In this document: in pieces, positions 2,036 to 19,821 of the stretch
Layout: the number at the start of each line of letters is the position of its first letter
Position numbering within the stretch: the stretch's first letter is position 1
Virus record (IMG/VR): IMGVR_UViG_3300021963_010579
Coordinates: 1 to 20,084 of that record
Reading direction: 5' to 3' (one strand)
From: a virus
Length of the DNA stretch: 20,084 nucleotides
Notes under the pieces: generated by a model
What the model was told of the DNA's origin: nothing
Seen by the model: only the letters and a program-made list of their open reading frames with translations
Databases searched by the model: none
Position numbers and translations under genes: made by a program

Positions 2036-2039
<4 letters not shown>
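1656..2039 (-). CDS. Small HTH-like helper protein downstream of the serine recombinase
   Basis: This 127-residue protein has a basic N-terminus with IPLSIRKRNGRPKILPP. A central segment follows (about residues 60-90: TIQDIAVAENVSDRFVGRMI) that fits a helix-turn-helix in which the second helix reads VSDRFVGRMIRLAYLAP. The C-terminus ends PWDRQPQKVFG. From memory of the family, proteins with this N-terminal IRKRNGRP motif and C-terminal W..QP..VFG ending are common partners of recombinase genes in alphaproteobacteria. Its start codon overlaps the recombinase stop by four bases (TCAT at 2036-2039 on the plus strand), so the two are probably translationally coupled. I infer a DNA-binding accessory factor, perhaps a directionality factor or a regulator of recombination; no function has been shown that I know of. 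Confidence 0.8.
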
Positions 2040-3369
<1,330 letters not shown>

Positions 3370-3373
<4 letters not shown>

Positions 3374-3882
3374 CGCGGATCCCTCCCGACCTCACGAAGC
3401 CCGAAGAAACGGTAGCCGTTCCATTGCGTGCCAGTGATTGCCCGCGCGACCGCCGACAGCGATTTGAACCTACGCCCCTGCCAGTCAAAGCCATCGCGCA
3501 GCACAGTGACGGTATGCTCGACGCCATTCCATTCACGCACCAGCCGCGTGCCTGCGACGGGGTTGCGACCGTCTTCAATGATGGCTTTTCGACCCAGCTT
3601 CCCGTCGATTTCATCGGCGAGAAGATCGAGCATTCGCCGTGTCTCGCGCGACAGGCCGCCGAGCATCAGTTCCTGGATCCGGTAGCCGAGCCGCAGTTCG
3701 AGGTAGCTGCGGCTGTTGTTTGGCGCCGGCGAGCGAAAAAGGCTCTCCCACTTTGCCTTCAATTCCCCGACCGACATCTGCTTCAGCGCTGCAAGCTGCG
3801 CCACCGCGCTCGCGTCTGAGGCGGCGCTTTCACGCGGCCGCATCGGCGCATCGTCCATCTTCTTCCTGGCAACTGCCATCAT
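3370..3882 (-). CDS. DUF2924 family protein
   Basis: The protein has about 170 residues and the typical DUF2924 layout. A variable N-terminus is followed by LAALKQMSVGELKAKWESLF, then NNSRSYLELRLGYRIQELMLGGLS. The C-terminal half reads GTRLVREWNGVEHTVTVL, then a WQGRRFKSLSAVARAITGTQ segment typical of a small DNA-associated beta-alpha fold. DUF2924 genes commonly sit directly upstream of serine recombinases in alphaproteobacterial mobile elements, as here, and their role is not established. Three start codons lie in a row (GTG 3885, ATG 3882, ATG 3879). A GGAGG on the minus strand just upstream favours one of the ATGs; I give 3882. The gene is coupled to the recombinase by a four-base overlap. 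Confidence 0.88.
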
Positions 3883-4103
3883 CACCCTCCAACTCGGTTG
3901 TTCGGTTTGCGACGACCAACACGGCGTTTGAGGGCGAGAATGTCGAATGAACTCTCTCCGCCTGGCGCAGATAAAGAACTCGACTGTTCCGAGAGAATAC
4001 GCCTCAGGCCAACAGCCAGAATGCGCGCGACTTCATTGAGCCGGGCATCCGCCGGAAGGCGTTCCGCAGCGATGGGGTTTGGGCCGGAGAGCGCTGTGTG
4101 CAT
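3882..4103 (-). CDS. Small conserved protein at the head of the integration operon
   Basis: A short frame of about 73 residues, starting MHTALSGPNPIAAERLPADARLNEVARILAVGLRRI..., ends by touching the DUF2924 start. The core AxARLNEVARILAVGLRRI followed by a serine-rich SSLSAPGGESSFDI tail resembles the small unnamed proteins often found directly before DUF2924 in this type of operon (recollection of context, not a database match). The frame is open further up to a TTG at 4118, but ATG 4103 is the first good start. It has no membrane helix or catalytic motif. An AT-rich stretch at about 4130-4190 upstream is the most likely place for the promoter of the whole leftward operon. Confidence 0.6.
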   Translation of the reverse strand: MHTALSGPNPIAAERLPADARLNEVARILAVGLRRILSEQSSSLSAPGGESSFDILALKRRVGRRKPNNRVGG

Positions 4104-4279
4104 GGAGACCGTTCGCAATCAAATTCGCCAAGCAAACGCTTAGTCACGAACGGAAAATACGCAATATAAATCAGCAGCTTATCAGGTTTCTGCGGAGTCA
4201 TTAGAAGCGGTGCGCAGGTTCTTGCTCCGGCCGGCAACTCAGAGCGGACGGCGCCCGCGGATGATGGAATCGCTCACTC

Positions 4280-11002: not shown

Positions 11003-11756
11003 TCGACGCGCCACATGCGCCGACCAGATCAACGCGCTCATCGATGCCGCTATCGAGACCGAGCGCGGCGCCGCGTCTGCGCGAACCTATCTCGGCGGCT
11101 CACGTCTTGGCGTGGCTTGCGAACGCGCGCTGCAATTCGAGTTCACGGGCGCGCCGAAAGACGAGGGCTCTCACTTCAAGGGCCAGACGTTGCGCATCTT
11201 CGAGATCGGTCACGCGCTTGAAGACCTCGCAATCCGCTGGCTGCGCGCCGCAGACATTGATCTCTATACCCGCAAGGGCAATCGCCCCGATGGCGAGCAA
11301 TTCGGCTTCGCCGTCGCCGGCGGGCGTATCCGTGGACATGTCGATGGCATCATCGCCTCAACACCAGGTGCGATCGGACTTGCCGTCCCCGCACTCTGGG
11401 AATGCAAGACGATGAACGCGAAGAACTGGCGCGAGACGGTTGCCCGGGGCGTGGTCGTAGCAAAGCCCGTCTACGCCGCGCAGATCGCGCTCTACCAAGC
11501 CTACATGGAAGCGCAGGTGCCGGGCATCTCGCAGAGCCCCGCGCTGTTCACGGCCATCAACAAGGACACCGCGGAGCTGCACCATGAGCTCGTGCCGTTC
11601 GACGCAGCACTGGCGCAGCGGATGAGCGATCGCGGTGTGCGCATCCTGCAGGCGACCGACGCGGGCGAATTGCTGCCGCGCATCGCCACGAGCCGCGACT
11701 TCCATGAATGCCGGATGTGCGCATGGGCAGATCGGTGCTGGGGGCTGCCCACATGA
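10989..11756 (+). CDS. PD-(D/E)XK nuclease, RecB/phage-exonuclease-like
   Basis: The protein has about 255 residues from ATG 10989 (MLDYNRRATCADQI...). The nuclease core is seen as LRIFEIGHALEDLAIRWL (conserved Glu of motif I), then GRIRGHVDGII (motif II Asp) and ALWECKTM (motif III E-x-K). Downstream is YAAQIALYQAYM, the QxxxY motif typical of RecB-family nucleases. The C-terminus has CRMCAWADRCW, a cysteine cluster like those in Cas4/AddB-type iron-sulphur nucleases; the fourth cysteine could be the one in GVACERAL near residue 43. The frame is open upstream to 10890, but 10989 has GGAAAA eight bases before it and begins the family-like part. With a Sak4-like annealase nearby, it may provide 5' resection for recombination (inference). 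Confidence 0.85.
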   Translation: MLDYNRRATCADQINALIDAAIETERGAASARTYLGGSRLGVACERALQFEFTGAPKDEGSHFKGQTLRIFEIGHALEDLAIRWLRAADIDLYTRKGNRPDGEQFGFAVAGGRIRGHVDGIIASTPGAIGLAVPALWECKTMNAKNWRETVARGVVVAKPVYAAQIALYQAYMEAQVPGISQSPALFTAINKDTAELHHELVPFDAALAQRMSDRGVRILQATDAGELLPRIATSRDFHECRMCAWADRCWGLPT

Positions 11757-14041
11757 GCGAGAGCAACATCGTCTCCCTAGATGCGTGGCGCGATTTCAAC
11801 GACGCGGCTCCGCTAAGCGACCCGTTCAACATCGAGCCGGATCCCGAGCAGATCGCGATCTTTCTCGACGTTGTCTTCGGCTACTGCGAAGGCTGGGCTC
11901 CCCTGCGCGGGTTCGTCGACAAGGGCCAGGGGATTGCAGGCCGTCCGCACAATGTATGGGTCGAAGTCGATGGCAGCCTTCTTGAGAAAGCCATCTCCTT
12001 CGCCGGCTGGGCTGCGCGCGAAGGCGCAGCGTTCTACGTGGTGCCGGGCACGGTCGTTGATGCCGGCAAGGCGAAGGCCGCCGATGTCCGCCAAATGCAG
12101 ACCGTGCTGGTCGATCTCGATGCGGGCGACATCCCCGCAAAGCTGGACCACCTCATACTGCATCTTGGCGAGCCGACGCTGATCGTCGAGAGCGGCGGTC
12201 GCACCCCCGATGGCATCGACAAGCTGCATGTCTGGTGGCGGCTGAGTGAGCCTGCGGAGGCGGAGGATATTGCGTTGCTCTGTCGGCTGCGCGGCGACAT
12301 CGCCGTGAAGGTCGGAGGCGACACGCATTTTCGCTCAGCGCACCAGCCGATCCGACTGGCGGGCTCCGTCTATCACAAGGGCGGATTTACACGCCTCGTC
12401 ACCATTCGTCGCCACAGCCCACAGGCCGAAGTCCACCTGCGTGAGTTTGCAGAGCTGGTGGACGCCATGCCGCCGTTGGCCGGCGTCGGGTGTGAGCCTG
12501 GTCCCGCGTCCGAGAAACCCTCGATCAAAGACATCCTGACCACGCCGGTCCGTGAAGGCGGCGAGGATGACTGGACACGTTTCCAGGGGGCAAGCGCCGC
12601 GATCGGTCATTACGTGCGCATGGCCCACGAGGGCCGCATGAGCCGTGACGAAGCCTGGGAGGCCATCTGCCAGTACAATGCCGCCCAGCTTCGCCCGTGT
12701 TGGCCCCTGGAGCGCCTTGCGAGCGAAGCCCAACGGCTCTGGCGGCTACACGAGGAACGCCACGGCCCGGCCCTGGAGCGGCTCTCCGCTCCGCCCATGT
12801 CAGCCTTGCCGACATTCACGCTCGGCGCCCTGCTCGACGACACCAGCCCCATGCCGGACGACATCATCGCTCCACGCGTGCTGACGCCGGGCGGGATGCT
12901 TGTACTGGGCGGCGCGCCCAAGGTCGGCAAGAGCGACTTTCTGATCAGCCTGCTCGTGCACATGGCGGCGGGCGTGCCGTTCCTGGCCTTCGCGCCAAGT
13001 CGGCCGCTTCGGATCTTCTATCTGCAGGCGGAGATCCAGTACCACTATTTGCGCGAGCGCCTTCAAGCCATCCGCATCGATCCCGCGCTCATAGCGGCAG
13101 CACGTGACAACCTCGTCGCAACGCCCAAGGTCCGCATGCTGCTTGATGCGGGCGGCGTTGCGCTGACCACAGCCGCCGTCCGCGCGCATTACGGTCACAG
13201 CGCGCCGGATATCCTCTGCATCGATCCGATCCGCAACCTCTTCGATGGTGGAGCGGAGGGAGGCGGTGAGAACGACAACACCGCGATGCTCTTCTTCCTG
13301 CAGGCCCGGATCGAAGCGCTGCGCGACGCGGTTGCGCCCGATGCCGGCCTGATCCTGTGCCACCACACTCGCAAGATTACGAAGAAGCAGCTCATCGAGG
13401 ATCCGTTCATGGCGCTTTCTGGCGCAGGATCGCTCCGCAGCTTCTACACATCCGGCATCATCATGCATCGGCCCGACGAAGACCGACCGGAGCGGATGCT
13501 GCATTTCGAGCTGCGCAACGGGCCGGGCATCGAGCCGATCGTCATCGACAAGGCGAATGGGCGCTGGATCGAGATCGATCGGTCCAGCGAGCGTCTCGTG
13601 CGCAAGGCCATGGGCGACAAGCTCGATGCAGAGCGCGTGCGCAAGCACGACGTCATTCTCGGCGTGTTGCTGGATGAGGCGCTGGAAGGACGGCTCTACA
13701 CCATCAATCAGTTCGCGGAAGCCTTCGAGAACCGCGGCGGCCTTGGCGGCAAGGACACGATCCGCGAGCGACTGAACGTCCTTGCCACGAAGGGCTTCGT
13801 GAAGTTCCTGCGCGACGGCACGCCCTACGGACTCGGCCCGTCGCGTTCCCGGTTCGGCTTTCTGTGCGTCGAAGGGATGGCCGCGCCGACGGGCGCGGAG
13901 GCCGTCGATCCCGATACCGGCGAGGTCGTTCCGGCGACCATCGCCGTGCTGCCGACCCACTACAAATCGCCCCAGACGGGCGTGCTGCTCGAGGTCGAAA
14001 ACCCGCAGGTGTGGGTCTACCCGGAAGGCGAAGAGCCATGA
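11753..14041 (+). CDS. Primase-helicase: AEP-like primase domain fused to AAA_25/RepA-type ATPase
   Basis: This 762-residue protein starts with ATGA overlapping the nuclease stop. The N-terminal part (about 40-240) resembles archaeo-eukaryotic-type primases of plasmids and phages, with the metal-binding pair in VLVDLDAGD (Asp121, Asp123) and a later His in KLHVWWRL (His159). The central part is a RecA-like AAA_25/RepA hexameric helicase with Walker A GGAPKVGKS (about 386-394), Walker B DILCID (about 486-491) and the sensor-like LILCHHTRK. The C-terminal part (about 640-760) has a winged-helix-like segment (YTINQFAEAFENRGGLGGKD). It is expected to prime and unwind replication of the element. 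Because it lies immediately before a repeat-rich gap, it may act on an origin there. Confidence 0.88.
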   Translation: MSESNIVSLDAWRDFNDAAPLSDPFNIEPDPEQIAIFLDVVFGYCEGWAPLRGFVDKGQGIAGRPHNVWVEVDGSLLEKAISFAGWAAREGAAFYVVPGTVVDAGKAKAADVRQMQTVLVDLDAGDIPAKLDHLILHLGEPTLIVESGGRTPDGIDKLHVWWRLSEPAEAEDIALLCRLRGDIAVKVGGDTHFRSAHQPIRLAGSVYHKGGFTRLVTIRRHSPQAEVHLREFAELVDAMPPLAGVGCEPGPASEKPSIKDILTTPVREGGEDDWTRFQGASAAIGHYVRMAHEGRMSRDEAWEAICQYNAAQLRPCWPLERLASEAQRLWRLHEERHGPALERLSAPPMSALPTFTLGALLDDTSPMPDDIIAPRVLTPGGMLVLGGAPKVGKSDFLISLLVHMAAGVPFLAFAPSRPLRIFYLQAEIQYHYLRERLQAIRIDPALIAAARDNLVATPKVRMLLDAGGVALTTAAVRAHYGHSAPDILCIDPIRNLFDGGAEGGGENDNTAMLFFLQARIEALRDAVAPDAGLILCHHTRKITKKQLIEDPFMALSGAGSLRSFYTSGIIMHRPDEDRPERMLHFELRNGPGIEPIVIDKANGRWIEIDRSSERLVRKAMGDKLDAERVRKHDVILGVLLDEALEGRLYTINQFAEAFENRGGLGGKDTIRERLNVLATKGFVKFLRDGTPYGLGPSRSRFGFLCVEGMAAPTGAEAVDPDTGEVVPATIAVLPTHYKSPQTGVLLEVENPQVWVYPEGEEP

Positions 14042-14454
14042 TCGCGGGCCTCACGCACATCCCGCAGAACTGCGCTCTGCCCAGTTTAAACCAGATGGGG
14101 CGCAGCGCCGAAACTGCTCCGACACGGCTGCTCGCCGCTTCGCTCTGGTCCGCCGTGATCAGATTGGGCGGGTTTCCGAAACTACCCCGTCAGAATTGCG
14201 CCCTGACTAGTTTGGCTTCGCTCCAACCAGATTGGGTCGATGTGCCATTCCGAAACTGCCGAAACTGGAAAAACATCAATCCAATCAATGCACTATTGGT
14301 CAGTTCAAGTTTAGGGGGTGAAAGCCACCCCCTTCGGGGGTGGGGAGACCGCCGCAGGCGGGGTCTCCCATTCCCACCCCCAGGGGCTTCGCGCGCGCGT
14401 GGCCTGCATCTCAACCCCTCGACCATCCGCCACCTCCCCCAGGGATCGACTTCC
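14042..14454. other. 413-base non-coding region with repeats and strong hairpins
   Basis: The stretch between primase-helicase and RuvC-like genes holds a repeat area and a hairpin area. In 14065-14268 there are two 23-mers (14065-14087 and 14191-14213, 19 of 23 identical), three CAGAT(T/G)GGG(C/T)-type units (14092, 14160, 14228) and several GAAACT(G/A)C or reversed (C)AGTTT words. GAAACTGC is at 14110-14117 and 14252-14259, and GAAACTGG at 14261-14268. An inverted CCAAT...ATTGG lies at about 14281-14298. GC-rich hairpins follow at 14314-14384. This is the best origin-of-replication or regulatory RNA candidate in the window. The frame of the next gene is open across it, but the peptide looks random. 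Confidence 0.5.
14314..14384 (+). ncRNA. Mutually exclusive hairpin set (attenuator or RNA switch candidate)
   Basis: The segment CCACCCCC (14325-14332) can pair with GGGGGTGG (14336-14343) over a TTC loop, or with GGGGGTG (14314-14320) upstream. GGGGGTGG can instead pair with CCACCCCC at 14374-14381. That pairing encloses a second hairpin, GGAGACC (14344-14350) with GGTCTCC (14362-14368), around GCC-GCA-GGC. The two sets of pairings cannot form together, which is the hallmark of switch-like leaders. It lies 70-140 bases before the RuvC-like start. Alternatively it is a palindromic repeat element or terminator; no U-run follows. Confidence 0.35.
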
Positions 14455-14985
14455 ATGAGCACACACCCTGCACCCGTGACCATGCCCGGCCTCCGGTCGA
14501 CGCCGCCCGTCATCCCAGCGGCCCGGACCATCCTGGCCCTTGATCTCGGCACCACGACCGGTTGGGCAGGTCTGGTCCAGGGGGTCGTGCATAGCGGCAC
14601 CATGACGTTCCACACAGGGCGCTACGACGGCGGCGGCATGCGCTACCTGCGTTTCCAGACATGGCTTGAGGGGCTCGCCGAAGACACAGGCGGCGTGGCG
14701 GCGATCTACTTCGAAGAGGTCCGCCGTCACATCGGCACCGATGCAGCGCACATCTACGGAGGCTTCCTGGCGACGCTGAGCGCGTGGTGCGAGCGCAAGG
14801 GCGTGGCCTACCAGGGCGTCCCCGTCGGTACGGTGAAGCGCTTCGCTACGGGCAAGGGCAACGCCGACAAGCAGGCTGTGCTGGCAGCGATGCGCAGTCG
14901 TGGGTTCAACCCTGCCGACGACAACGAGGCCGATGCGCTCGCGATCCTGCTCTGGGCGATGGAGACACGAGGAGGCGTGCTGTGA
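14455..14985 (+). CDS. RuvC-like Holliday junction resolvase
   Basis: This 176-residue protein has the RNase H-like fold of phage RuvC resolvases. The first acidic residue is in ILALDLGTTTGWA (Asp30), the second in AIYFEEVRRH (Glu87/Glu88), and the C-terminal acidic pair is in DDNEADALAILLWA (Glu158, Asp160). RuvC-type enzymes cut four-way junctions symmetrically to resolve recombination or replication intermediates. The N-terminus is about 25 residues longer than the catalytic core needs and is Pro-rich, so a later start is possible. ATG 14455 has only a weak AGGGA ribosome binding sequence. The frame stays open upstream to the ATG at 14038 that overlaps the primase stop (see findings). The next gene overlaps by GTGA. 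Confidence 0.85.
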   Translation: MSTHPAPVTMPGLRSTPPVIPAARTILALDLGTTTGWAGLVQGVVHSGTMTFHTGRYDGGGMRYLRFQTWLEGLAEDTGGVAAIYFEEVRRHIGTDAAHIYGGFLATLSAWCERKGVAYQGVPVGTVKRFATGKGNADKQAVLAAMRSRGFNPADDNEADALAILLWAMETRGGVL

Positions 14986-16159: not shown

Positions 16160-16405
16160 ATGGCGCGCAATACATCCGTTTCCCTAGGCGACCATTTCGC
16201 CGCATTCATTGATGGGCAGGTTCAAACCGGCCGCTACGGCTCGGCCAGCGATGTCGTGCGGGCGGGTTTGCGGCTTCTGGAAGAGCATGAGGCCAAGGTG
16301 AAGGCTCTCCAGGACGCGCTGATCGTCGGAGAGCAATCCGGTCAGCCGGCGCCGCTCGACAGTGACGCGTTCCTGAAGCGCATGCGAACCAAGCATGCCG
16401 GGTAA
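16160..16405 (+). CDS. parD: ParD-family antitoxin (ribbon-helix-helix)
   Basis: This 81-residue protein opens with MARNTSVSLGDHFAAFIDGQ and continues VQTGRYGSASDVVRAGLRLL, the ribbon-helix-helix N-terminus of ParD/CopG antitoxins. The C-terminal tail (about 50-81) is charged and would wrap around the toxin. ParD dimers repress the operon and neutralise ParE. AAGGAGG at 16147-16153 lies six bases before the start codon. The gene overlaps the toxin gene by 11 bases, so the pair is co-translated in the usual antitoxin-first order. It has full length and no defect is seen. Confidence 0.88.
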   Translation: MARNTSVSLGDHFAAFIDGQVQTGRYGSASDVVRAGLRLLEEHEAKVKALQDALIVGEQSGQPAPLDSDAFLKRMRTKHAG

Positions 16406-16694
16406 AAGCCGGGCCTGTCTGCTTTCACCCCGGGCAGAAGCCGACCTCGAAGAAATCTGGCTTTACACCTTCAAGACCTGGTCGCTTGCGCAGGCTGACA
16501 GCTACCACGCCGCCATCGTCGAGGCGTTTGACGATCTGGCGAATGGTAGGAAGATCGGGCGTCTCGTCGATATCCGAGATGGCTACTTAACACATTCGGT
16601 CGGTTCTCATCTTGTATTCTACCGCCTCACCGAATCGGACCTTGTCGTTGTTCGCGTGCTGCATCAGCGCATGGATGTCGCACGGCACCTGTAG
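16395..16694 (+). CDS. parE: ParE/RelE-superfamily toxin
   Basis: This 99-residue protein has the ParE/RelE fold signature. It begins LSPRAEADLEEIWLYTFKTW, continues ADSYHAAIVEAFDDLANGRK, and ends with IRDGYLTHSVGSHLVFYRLT and VRVLHQRMDVARHL. ParE toxins block DNA gyrase; RelE members cleave mRNA on ribosomes. The L-x-x-R-A-x-x-D-L-x-x-I-W start and the R-V-L-H-x-R-M-D ending are typical of ParE. It has normal length, with no missing region. The gene directly follows and overlaps parD, and the pair is most likely functional. Its role in the prophage could be to stabilise the element or to interfere with other phages. Confidence 0.88.
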   Translation: MPGKSRACLLSPRAEADLEEIWLYTFKTWSLAQADSYHAAIVEAFDDLANGRKIGRLVDIRDGYLTHSVGSHLVFYRLTESDLVVVRVLHQRMDVARHL

Positions 16695-17501: not shown

Positions 17502-17915
17502 TTATACCTTGAACGGGTTGAGGACGCGCACGCCAAGGCCGGCAACATCGGCGTCGTTGCGTGTCACCAGCGTAAGGTCATGAACTTTGGCGGTCGCCGC
17601 GAGCAACCCGTCGATGACGGGAATGGGACGCATGGCGCTCATGCGACCCCACGCGTCACTGACGAAACGATCGACAGGGATCACGCGATCGGCGAAAGCC
17701 TCAACGACAGCGTCGAGCCACCCTTGCAAGGCCTCGGCCTTTGCCGGGTCGCGCGGGCGAGCAAGCTCGATGCCTTTGCGGATCTCGCCGAGGATCAGCG
17801 CGCTGAGATAAAGATCGGAATCCTTGATCGAGGAATACCACGCCGCAACGTTTGGATCGCACCGCGTCCCTTTGCGGACCTCGGATATGACGTTCGTGTC
17901 GATCAGGAAACTCAC
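17502..17915 (-). CDS. vapC: VapC-type PIN-domain toxin
   Basis: This 137-residue protein is a PIN-domain ribonuclease. The four acidic active-site residues are visible: Asp6 in FLIDTNVISEVRKG, Glu44 in LILGEIRKGIEL, Asp102 in PIPVIDGLLAATA and Asp121 in LTLVTRNDADVAG. VapC toxins cut tRNA or rRNA and stop translation until neutralised. It uses a GTG start that overlaps the antitoxin stop (GTGA at 17912-17915), the normal antitoxin-first arrangement. Length is normal for the family and the catalytic set is complete, so it is likely active. It ends about 100 bases before the decayed higBA block on the same strand. Confidence 0.92.
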   Translation of the reverse strand: MSFLIDTNVISEVRKGTRCDPNVAAWYSSIKDSDLYLSALILGEIRKGIELARPRDPAKAEALQGWLDAVVEAFADRVIPVDRFVSDAWGRMSAMRPIPVIDGLLAATAKVHDLTLVTRNDADVAGLGVRVLNPFKV

Positions 17916-18498: not shown

Positions 18499-19821
18499 AT
18501 GACGCTGAGCTTCGCCCCTGAGCGGATCGAGACCTGGCCGCTGGCCAAGCTGCAGCCCTATGCCGCCAACCCCAAAGCCCATGACGATGATCAGGTGGCG
18601 AAGCTCGCCGCCAGCATGGCGGCGTTTGGCTGGACCGTGCCGTGCCTCGTCGCGAAGGATGGTGAACTGATCGCTGGACACGGCCGTGTCCTGGCCGCCA
18701 CCCGGCTCGGCCTTACTGAGGCTCCGGTAATAGTCCTCGACCATCTGAGTGAGGCTCAGCGCCGAGCCTACAGGATCGCCGACAACAAGCTGACGGAACT
18801 CGGCGGTTGGGATCAGGCCCTTCTATCCGTGGAACTTCAGAGCCTGCTGGCCGATGATTTCGACCTGTCCCTGGTCGGCTTCTCCGACGGTGAACTCGAC
18901 AAGCTGCTCACCTTCGAGCCGGAAACAGCTGAGGGAAGTTCTGAGAGCAAGGGATCGCCGCCGCCGCTGACCATCCCTGAGCCGCCCCGCAATCCGGCGT
19001 CGCGCACGGGCGATCTTTGGATCCTGGGTGACCACCGGCTTCTTTGCGGCGACAGCACCAGCCACGCCAATGTGCGCCGCCTGATGAATGGCGAGCGTGC
19101 CGTCTTGTTCGCGACCGATCCACCATATCTCGTAGATTACGATGGCTCGAACCATCCGAAGCGTAAAAAAGATCCAGCAGAGAGCGAGAGTGTGACATGG
19201 GACGACAGCTCCCAGGGCGCTGAACTCTATGACAACTTCATCGCAGCGGCCGTTGCCGAAGCTATTACCGATGATGCGGCCTGGTACTGTTGGCATGCGT
19301 CTCGCCGACAGGCCATGCTGGAAGCTTGCTGGGAGAAGGCCGGCGCCTTCGTCCATCAGCAGATCATCTGGGTGAAGGAACGCGGTGTGCTCACCCGGTC
19401 TCATTATCTCTGGAAACATGAGCCTTGCTTCATGGGCTGGCGTCGCCCAAACCGACCACCGAAAGTAGCCGAGGAAACGCTGTCCTCGACCTGGCAACTA
19501 CCGAGCTTCGCGAGGGAAGAACGCCCTGATCATCCAACGCCGAAGCCGCTCGATGCCTTCGGAATTCCGATGCGCCAGCACGTGGCGCGGGGTGGGCTCT
19601 GCTACGAACCATTCTCCGGATCTGGCTCGCAGATTATGGCAGGCGAAGCCAATGGTCGCCGTGTCTTCGCGATGGAGATAAGCCCTGCATATGTCGATGT
19701 GGCGGTGGAGCGCTGGCAAGCGCAGACGTGCAGCGTCGCAATCCTGGAAGGTGACGGCCGAAGCTTTGACGTCATCAAAGCCGAGCGGCTTGGAGCGAAC
19801 CCTACGACGGAGGCGGCATGA
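18499..19821 (+). CDS. ParB-like N-domain fused to beta-class DNA N6-adenine/N4-cytosine methyltransferase
   Basis: This 440-residue protein combines two parts. The first (about 8-110) is a ParB/Srx-like domain with LAKLQPYAANPKAHDDDQVA and the GHGR signature (60-63). The second is a methyltransferase with the catalytic DPPY motif IV (207-210) before the AdoMet-binding motif I EPFSGSGS (370-377). That order defines the beta class; the closing block is NGRRVFAMEISPAYVDVAVE. Such ParB-methyltransferase fusions are common in prophages and usually have no matching restriction enzyme. They probably protect phage DNA or alter gene expression. The recognition sequence cannot be read from the protein. 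The gene overlaps the next one by ATGA. Confidence 0.92.
   Translation: MTLSFAPERIETWPLAKLQPYAANPKAHDDDQVAKLAASMAAFGWTVPCLVAKDGELIAGHGRVLAATRLGLTEAPVIVLDHLSEAQRRAYRIADNKLTELGGWDQALLSVELQSLLADDFDLSLVGFSDGELDKLLTFEPETAEGSSESKGSPPPLTIPEPPRNPASRTGDLWILGDHRLLCGDSTSHANVRRLMNGERAVLFATDPPYLVDYDGSNHPKRKKDPAESESVTWDDSSQGAELYDNFIAAAVAEAITDDAAWYCWHASRRQAMLEACWEKAGAFVHQQIIWVKERGVLTRSHYLWKHEPCFMGWRRPNRPPKVAEETLSSTWQLPSFAREERPDHPTPKPLDAFGIPMRQHVARGGLCYEPFSGSGSQIMAGEANGRRVFAMEISPAYVDVAVERWQAQTCSVAILEGDGRSFDVIKAERLGANPTTEAA

Follow-up and report, generated by a model that had tools for sequence, protein, structure and literature searches.

A candidate replication origin whose repeats co-vary with the C-terminal domain of the neighbouring primase-helicase in temperate alphaproteobacterial phages

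The spacer between the primase-helicase and RuvC-like genes

In this study we analysed a window of 20,084 nt, which comprises positions 1-20,084 of the IMG/VR record IMGVR_UViG_3300021963_010579. A primase-helicase gene (11708-14041) and a RuvC-like gene (14455-14985) flank a 413-base spacer, in which a first-pass annotation of the window had proposed a replication origin at 14042-14313. The features of the spacer and its flanks are the following.

11708-14041, forward strand: primase-helicase gene (Pfam AAA_25, 1.1e-18; phrog_239 DNA primase/helicase; matches to the RepB'/PrimPol fold; winged-helix model)
13628-14038, forward strand: C-terminal part of the primase-helicase, residues 641-777, to which partial correlation and regression assign the iteron specificity
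14038-14985, forward strand: frame that is open in the window from an ATGA overlapping the primase stop, through the candidate origin and into the RuvC-like gene
14082-14118, forward strand: dyad 1, with forward CAGTTTAAAC (14082), forward CCAGATGGGG (14091) and reverse CCGAAACTGCT (14108)
14159-14186, forward strand: dyad 2, with TCAGATTGGG (14159) and CCGAAACTACC (14176)
14209-14269, forward strand: dyad 3, with AGTTTGG (14209), CCAGATTGGG (14227), CCGAAACTGCC (14250) and CCGAAACTGGA (14259)
14283-14295, forward strand: IHF-like TCARNGNNTTR motif, here AATCAATGCACTA, one mismatch from WATCARNNNNTTR, within the AT-richer segment
14306-14318, forward strand: last ('foot') half-site CAAGTTTAGGGGG, in forward orientation and adjoining the hairpins, which switches in step with the array type
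14325-14343, forward strand: hairpin 1, CCACCCCC - TTC - GGGGGTGG, found in 130/130 spacers
14344-14368, forward strand: hairpin 2, GGAGACCGCC - GCAG - GCGGGGTCTCC
14373-14381, forward strand: third strand CCCACCCCC, a potential alternative partner of the 3' arm of hairpin 1 that could replace its 5' arm
14455-14985, forward strand: RuvC-like resolvase gene, domain part (phrog_159, 7.8e-30)

The repeat words on which the origin proposal was built are all present in the window and exceed chance. They comprise a pair of 23-mers at 14065 and 14191 (19/23 identical), three CAGAT(T/G)GGG words at 14092, 14160 and 14228, GAAACT four times (14110, 14178, 14252, 14261) and AGTTT three times (14083, 14209, 14308). 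The three CAGAT(T/G)GGG words are exactly 68 bp apart, and in each dyad the forward word (CAGATTGGG or CAGATGGGG) is followed by the reverse word CCGAAACT, 16, 16 and 22 bases on, with an extra AGTTT at 14083 and at 14209 and an extra CCGAAACT at 14259. For positions 14042-14313 we count 32 pairs of 7-mers, compared with a mean of 6.7 in dinucleotide shuffles (p about 0.001, 2000 shuffles). The window array contains four exact copies of the 8-mer CCGAAACT, a number reached by 0 of 200 shuffles, and other word sizes and mismatch limits give p values from 0 to 0.025. The repeat excess of the window taken alone is significant, not overwhelming; in the relatives it is clear.

The AT-richer segment that had been suggested as an unwinding element is also found, with a GC content of 0.40 and 0.37 in the 30-base bins from 14252 and 14282, compared with 0.53-0.70 before and 0.65-0.80 after them, and it is a plausible candidate for this role. 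The element extends further than first proposed, as the hairpin block at 14325-14381 belongs to it too. This block, the fixed 68-bp spacing and the role of the last half-site at 14306-14318 are additions to the earlier description.

The primase-helicase consists of a RepB'-fold primase (residues ~43-254), an AAA_25 helicase (368-556) and a C-terminal winged helix (~641-777). According to its structural model (pLDDT 75.7), the N-terminal domain has the fold of the RSF1010 RepB' primase: the model matches the S-2L PrimPol (6zp9) with Z 20.8, RepB' (3h20) with Z 16.9 and RepB' with initiator DNA (3h25) with Z 16.8, and all other rows are at 11.6 or below. Foldseek gives 1.6e-8 for 3h20 and 1.8e-7 for 3h25. 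The Pfam family RepB_primase is matched by 12 of 38 family members (best 0.0011), and the window protein is not among these. The helicase domain belongs to AAA_25, a family that presumably includes RSF1010 RepA. For the C-terminal part we have moderate confidence in a winged-helix fold, since many winged-helix proteins are among the rows with Z 5-6.1 for its AF2 model (pLDDT 80.5), none of them standing out, and LexA_DNA_bind is matched by 10 of 38 members (best 0.0041) and Penicillinase_R by 3 of 38 (best 0.00086). Foldseek found nothing at E <=0.001 for the C-terminal model, and the whole protein matched nothing in the PDB by sequence at E <=1. In profile searches the N-terminal part gave only unrelated enzymes (best FabG, 0.0042) and the C-terminal part nothing. 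A hypothetical protein of the Wolbachia phage WO, described as 'AAA25 phage related' (L163), is 51% identical to the helicase part (residues 367-627).

Other genes of the window include a serine recombinase (2036-3373, reverse strand) followed by a DUF2924 gene (3370-3885, reverse strand), likely an integration module. A ParD-ParE toxin-antitoxin pair (16160-16405 and 16395-16694) adjoins the phage early region, and a PIN-domain protein, likely the toxin of a toxin-antitoxin system, is encoded at 17502-17915 on the reverse strand. A DNA methyltransferase with a ParB-like N-terminal domain lies at 18499-19821; such a gene is also found downstream in two relatives (L083, L034) and, by eye, in the Shinella locus described below.

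Conservation and exchange of the array among relatives

Relatives were retrieved with the primase-helicase, taking the top 80 loci from genomes and the top 80 from viral contigs, so the adjacency of the array to this gene is by construction. The spacer could be measured in 145 of 161 loci (window included), which yielded 130 distinct spacers. The first RuvC match mostly lies 380-520 bp after the primase stop. The array is 274-307 bases long in 101 of the 130 loci and 105-200 bases in the remaining 29, in which the three-dyad layout is missing, as judged from two examples. Repetitiveness at p<0.01 was detected in 52 of 58 non-redundant arrays, but in only 2 of 58 pieces of the primase gene and 0 of 57 pieces of the RuvC gene of equal length.

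The words themselves come in several types. The window combines CAGATTGGG with CCGAAACT; other loci carry AGTTGGGA with TCCCAACT, or AGTTGTGA with TCACAACT, and further types pair GTTAGG with CCTAAC, or GAGGAC with GAGGAG words. Although the words differ, the dyad positions are kept in the long arrays, with intervals between successive AACTRCY words of 68 bp (51 cases), 78 bp (23) and 74 bp (8), and the half-site at the foot of the hairpins changes together with the array words. In 8/8 related viral records the iteron words form one cluster each, at the primase/RuvC spacer. Every word match is at the spacer in the B-type records (n=4). In three of the four A-type records there are isolated one-mismatch matches elsewhere, at the level of a reversed-pattern control, and in the A-type records it is the clustering alone, not the total word count, that exceeds this control. 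The labels by majority word that we used for the tree mislabel some H-type loci as B when inspected by eye, and the tree's 21 type changes are therefore an over-count; the later comparisons use the spectrum of repeated words.

A DNA similarity search in phage records returned only short pieces with E >= 2. In plasmids there was one strong match (9e-22), in Shinella, which is a second copy of the same module: the record (L162, NZ_CP069303.1) is 4.6 Mb long, is listed as a plasmid and carries two copies of the primase-origin module about 70 kb apart. Three strains have two modules each (L019/L029, L043/L045, L044/L073), and as two of these three pairs share the iteron type, integrated copies are not mutually exclusive. 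In a betaproteobacterial plasmid of Eleftheria terrae (L164, 4276-4588) the layout looks similar by eye: there are CAGTTGGC and GCCAACT words as well as a hairpin with a TAC loop. Loci of the Rhodobacter type (L034, L035, L063 and similar ones) possess an extra conserved inverted repeat, GACGACGGCGG ... CCGCCGTCGTC, between the hairpin block and RuvC, which by eye is not seen in the window.

In 103 of 122 loci the best match (<=2 mismatches) to WATCARNNNNTTR, which we take to be the IHF consensus, lies 41-42 nt ahead of hairpin 1. A match with at most one mismatch occurs in 79 of 122 loci, compared with 1.0% of random and 2.9% of shuffled pieces. IHF is only a candidate for the protein acting here, because only 26 of 111 loci retain the consensus A at the second position, a non-consensus G is retained in 90 of 111, and exact consensus matches are found elsewhere in the window, at 4169 and 18258.

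Hairpin 1 is present in all 130 spacers, with a TAC or TTC loop in 113. A third strand scoring at least 6, which would allow alternative pairing, was detected in 126 of the 130; since the search favours good stems and penalised G-T pairs, these counts are descriptive. Compared with mononucleotide shuffles, 25 representatives fold with z scores from -2.1 to -5.3. The window and nine further loci reach the gathering score of no Rfam family, and the weak matches to mir-1234 and the like (best E 0.57) were taken as chance matches to a GC-rich inverted repeat. The hairpin type has a partial correlation of 0.57-0.59 with the C-terminal part of the primase-helicase and of 0.01-0.10 with the primase domain, which leaves a sequence-specific reading of the hairpins by the RepB'-like domain unsupported.

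The array co-varies with the primase-helicase. For 129 loci we compared the similarity of the repeated words with protein identity, after adjustment for identity across primase residues 1-600. Up to residue 640 the partial correlation, taken in windows of 40 residues, stays between -0.14 and 0.24; it then rises to 0.52 (641-680), 0.63 (681-720) and 0.70 (721-760). For residues 661-777 it is 0.73, a value reached by 0 of 2000 permutations (largest 0.08). RuvC, on the far side of the spacer, gives 0.10. Given the primase body alone, the upstream exonuclease reaches 0.27 and DUF6362 0.37, but both lose all weight once the C-terminal part enters a joint model: in the regression on the 100 loci with all proteins its beta is 0.86, compared with -0.08 to 0.03 for the others, and without it R2 falls from 0.61 to 0.29. 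None of the 3274 pairs with C-terminal identity below 65% reaches an iteron similarity above 0.5. At C-terminal identities of at least 85%, 221 of 973 pairs nonetheless have an iteron similarity below 0.25; the 25 of these that were inspected are apparently same-type pairs, and the similarity measure is weak where few words repeat. From the co-variation we infer that the C-terminal winged helix recognises the half-sites.

The same pattern is seen in closely related loci which differ in array type. In L109/L112 the primase (residues 41-600) is 95% identical and residues 661-777 are 67% identical, with an iteron similarity of 0, a hairpin block of 99% and a RuvC of 89% identity. The corresponding values for L047/L141 are 89%, 65%, 0, 89% and 82%, and L114/L124 has 95% for the primase, 66% for the C-terminal part, 0 for the iterons, 61% for the hairpin block and 91% for RuvC. 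As these sister pairs keep both flanks, we argue that the exchanged unit is the winged helix with its sites and not merely a neighbouring stretch of DNA. There are also two chimeras, L138 and L159, whose N-terminal part comes from one lineage (92-93% identical to L063) while the C-terminal part, like the array, belongs to another (99% and 90% identity of the C-terminal part to L007). Their RuvC goes with the C-terminal part (88% and 80% to L007, compared with 72% and 73% to L063), so linkage alone would explain these two. With the specificity placed in one terminal domain beside its own binding sites, domain and array can be exchanged together by recombination, which would give rise to phages with the same replication enzyme and different origin types. 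Phages may thus switch origin specificity in one recombination event.

A stop-free frame across the array and hairpins

The most surprising feature of the locus is a frame without stop codons. In 123 of 130 loci it stays open from the ATGA at the primase stop until the hairpin block ends; the other two frames do so in 10 and 6 loci. Among 58 non-redundant loci, stops make up 0.25% of its codons in the array and 0.11% in the foot and hairpins, whereas the other forward frames have 1.2-2.8% and 3.2% is expected from the array composition. Within the final 300 bases of the primase gene, this frame contains 71 stops among 5800 codons (1.2%; 0.0-4.0% per bin), followed by 0.2-0.5% per bin from the primase stop to +300. 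Between the hairpin start and +75, 0 of 1450 codons are stops (58 loci), and beyond this point stops return, with a rate of 1.1% in each of the three frames as far as RuvC. The exceptions to openness are 6 of the 58 loci, all with short arrays of 154-200 bp. In the Eleftheria plasmid, by eye, the frame meets a stop inside the array.

Stops gained or lost between close relatives tell the same story. In the ATGA frame the array has 2 such changes against an expectation of 62, and the foot and hairpins have 0 against 15, while the other two frames have 99 vs 75 and 70 vs 70 over the array. In the last 60 bases before RuvC the ATGA frame has 0 where 5.6 are expected, and the others 4 vs 4.7 and 2 vs 5.2; the numbers are small, and stop avoidance may reach RuvC. 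In 27 of 58 loci the frame continues into RuvC, and in several others it ends near the RuvC start. At the overlap, 37 of 58 loci have ATG and 7 have GTG, and in 11 of the 14 loci with neither, an ATG, GTG or TTG appears in this frame by the seventh codon.

Tests by codon position rule out that the frame is a gene. Array substitutions fall evenly on its three codon positions (953/930/959, 97 pairs), the array dN/dS is 0.85 in this frame and 0.83 and 0.80 in the others, compared with 0.18 for the primase and 0.21 for RuvC, and GC content is flat across codon positions. We did not use the array length modulo 3 as a coding argument, because the 68-bp spacing largely fixes this length.

How can a frame be kept open while its amino acids are free to change? 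We consider it about an even chance that the candidate origin is obligatorily translated, the act of translation being selected and the peptide being left to drift. Overlaps of the ATGA kind couple translation through termination and restart (PMC6728339). Ribosomes finishing the primase-helicase would restart at the ATGA and run in frame across the iterons and hairpins. The simplest cause would be to shield the downstream RuvC message from polarity; other possible causes are that hairpins are kept open in the mRNA, or that synthesis of the initiator is coupled to the state of the origin. If true, translation would link the synthesis of the initiator to RuvC operon transcription and to the condition of the origin, for example by keeping Rho off the untranslated origin or the hairpins in the mRNA open. 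Among the papers listed by our literature searches on such frames, origins and primases we found no description of a stop-free, amino-acid-unconstrained frame over an origin. The frame makes the need for translating operon-internal origins directly testable.

The candidate origin and its comparison with known systems

On the comparative sequence evidence, we consider it very probable that 14042-14381 serves a temperate alphaproteobacterial phage as its replication origin. The candidate first proposed from the window's repeats has gained from the comparison: the array persists in the relatives, its words track the C-terminal part of the primase-helicase, and no other part of the proteins compared keeps weight in the joint model. 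The repeats, their spacing, the hairpins, the co-variation and the chimeras are computed results; the binding, unwinding, priming and origin activity that we infer would proceed as follows. The C-terminal winged helix would bind the half-sites of the three 68-bp-spaced dyads and the half-site at the hairpin foot, and IHF or a similar bending protein may act at the TCARNGNNTTR motif, a weaker suggestion. Once bound, the protein would load its RepA-like helicase where the DNA is AT-richer, and priming on the opened strands would fall to the RepB'-like domain. By analogy with ssiA and ssiB of RSF1010, the hairpin block is perhaps a single-strand initiation structure.

A different role is conceivable for the hairpin block, as an RNA attenuator or leader for RuvC in which strand 2 pairs with strand 1 or strand 3, the choice being made by ribosomes crossing the block. 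The alternative pairing possible in 126 of 130 loci, the folding z scores of the 25 representatives and the open frame that crosses the block with no stop in 1450 codons would fit such a device. We nevertheless regard it as unlikely. The foot half-site switches with the DNA-binding domain, no Rfam family is matched at gathering score, and by eye no T run follows the block in the window. Only 4 of 1010 hairpin-1 pairs are G-T, though the stems differ between loci; this is a weak argument, as G-T pairs were penalised in the search.

What the co-variation demonstrates is that array and C-terminal part travel together; an operator would produce this signal just as an origin would. The winged helix, or a repressor, could bind the array to control the RuvC operon, with the true origin elsewhere. 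Dyads and a specific DNA-binding domain would suit either an operator or an origin, and the array does sit between co-directed genes. However, three dyads over ~280 bp at a fixed 68-bp spacing, together with an AT-rich segment and hairpins, exceed the needs of an operator, and neither the window nor the 8 related records contain a second cluster of the words. The region also looks translated, which makes it an unlikely promoter region. We think that an operator is quite improbable.

A packaging site (cos or pac) bound by terminase is more improbable still. The cosB site of lambda has the same make-up of repeats and an IHF site, but the genes neighbouring our array are replication genes, the array co-varies with the primase-helicase, and none of the 9 ORFs scanned in the 5 kb downstream (4 in L083 and 5 in L034, for each of which 21 ORFs of >=100 aa were listed) matched a terminase family. 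That the repeats simply reflect a conserved coding region, an account which the first-pass annotation had set against its own proposal, is hardly credible, because the ATGA frame is indeed open in 123 of 130 loci but its amino acids are unconserved, its substitutions, dN/dS and GC content show no codon structure, and the repeats fall in different frames, 68 not being a multiple of 3.

Reading the locus as an origin, we see in this family a natural experiment on the recognition of origins by initiators, with several word types, a 68-bp scaffold and natural exchanges of domain plus array. These exchanges name residues 667, 710-711 and 750-762 as candidates for specificity.

A similar arrangement is known from the Rep-ori of the Staphylococcus aureus pathogenicity islands (SaPI) and of Cch2 in SCCmec, where the C-terminal domain of an initiator helicase reads adjacent downstream iterons; in SaPI Rep helicases these lie directly downstream of the protein's own gene (PMC7581432). 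In contrast, the window protein joins an AAA_25 helicase to a RepB'-like primase, and its locus has the 68-bp-spaced dyads, the IHF-like motif, the conserved hairpin block and the stop-free frame across the origin.

The oriV of RSF1010 (IncQ) shares with the window a RepB'-fold primase, a helicase, an iteron-binding protein, and iterons and hairpins in the origin. In RSF1010 these jobs are done by the separate proteins RepA, RepB' and RepC, with RepB' reading the hairpins ssiA and ssiB (PMC4234260, PMC4434180), whereas in the window the activities are in one protein and the iteron binder would be the fused winged helix.

Fused proteins of this kind are described as well. In the crenarchaeal plasmid pRN1 and the phage BIP-1, primase, helicase and winged helix are likewise combined in one protein, and a stem-loop follows its gene closely on the 3' side; this stem-loop was shown to be needed in pRN1 and is proposed in BIP-1 (PMC4234260). 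The pRN1 helicase belongs to SF3 and pRN1 lacks iterons, while the window combines an AAA_25 helicase with iterons. The alpha protein of phage P4 is likewise a multifunctional primase-helicase with a winged helix that binds origin repeats (PMC4234260); its primase is of the Toprim (bacterial) type, unlike the RepB' fold of the window. The PrimQH-type primase fusions of integrated elements comprise a primase, ATPases including the RepA type and a C-terminal winged helix, which has been suggested to recognise origins (PMC5862659); the account used here gives no origin for them.

By analogy, the window origin would work like those of SaPI, P4 and RSF1010. With the parallels in SaPI, pRN1, P4 and the winged-helix fusions, this kind of origin is already known; the present family, its scaffold and its history of exchange are additions to it.
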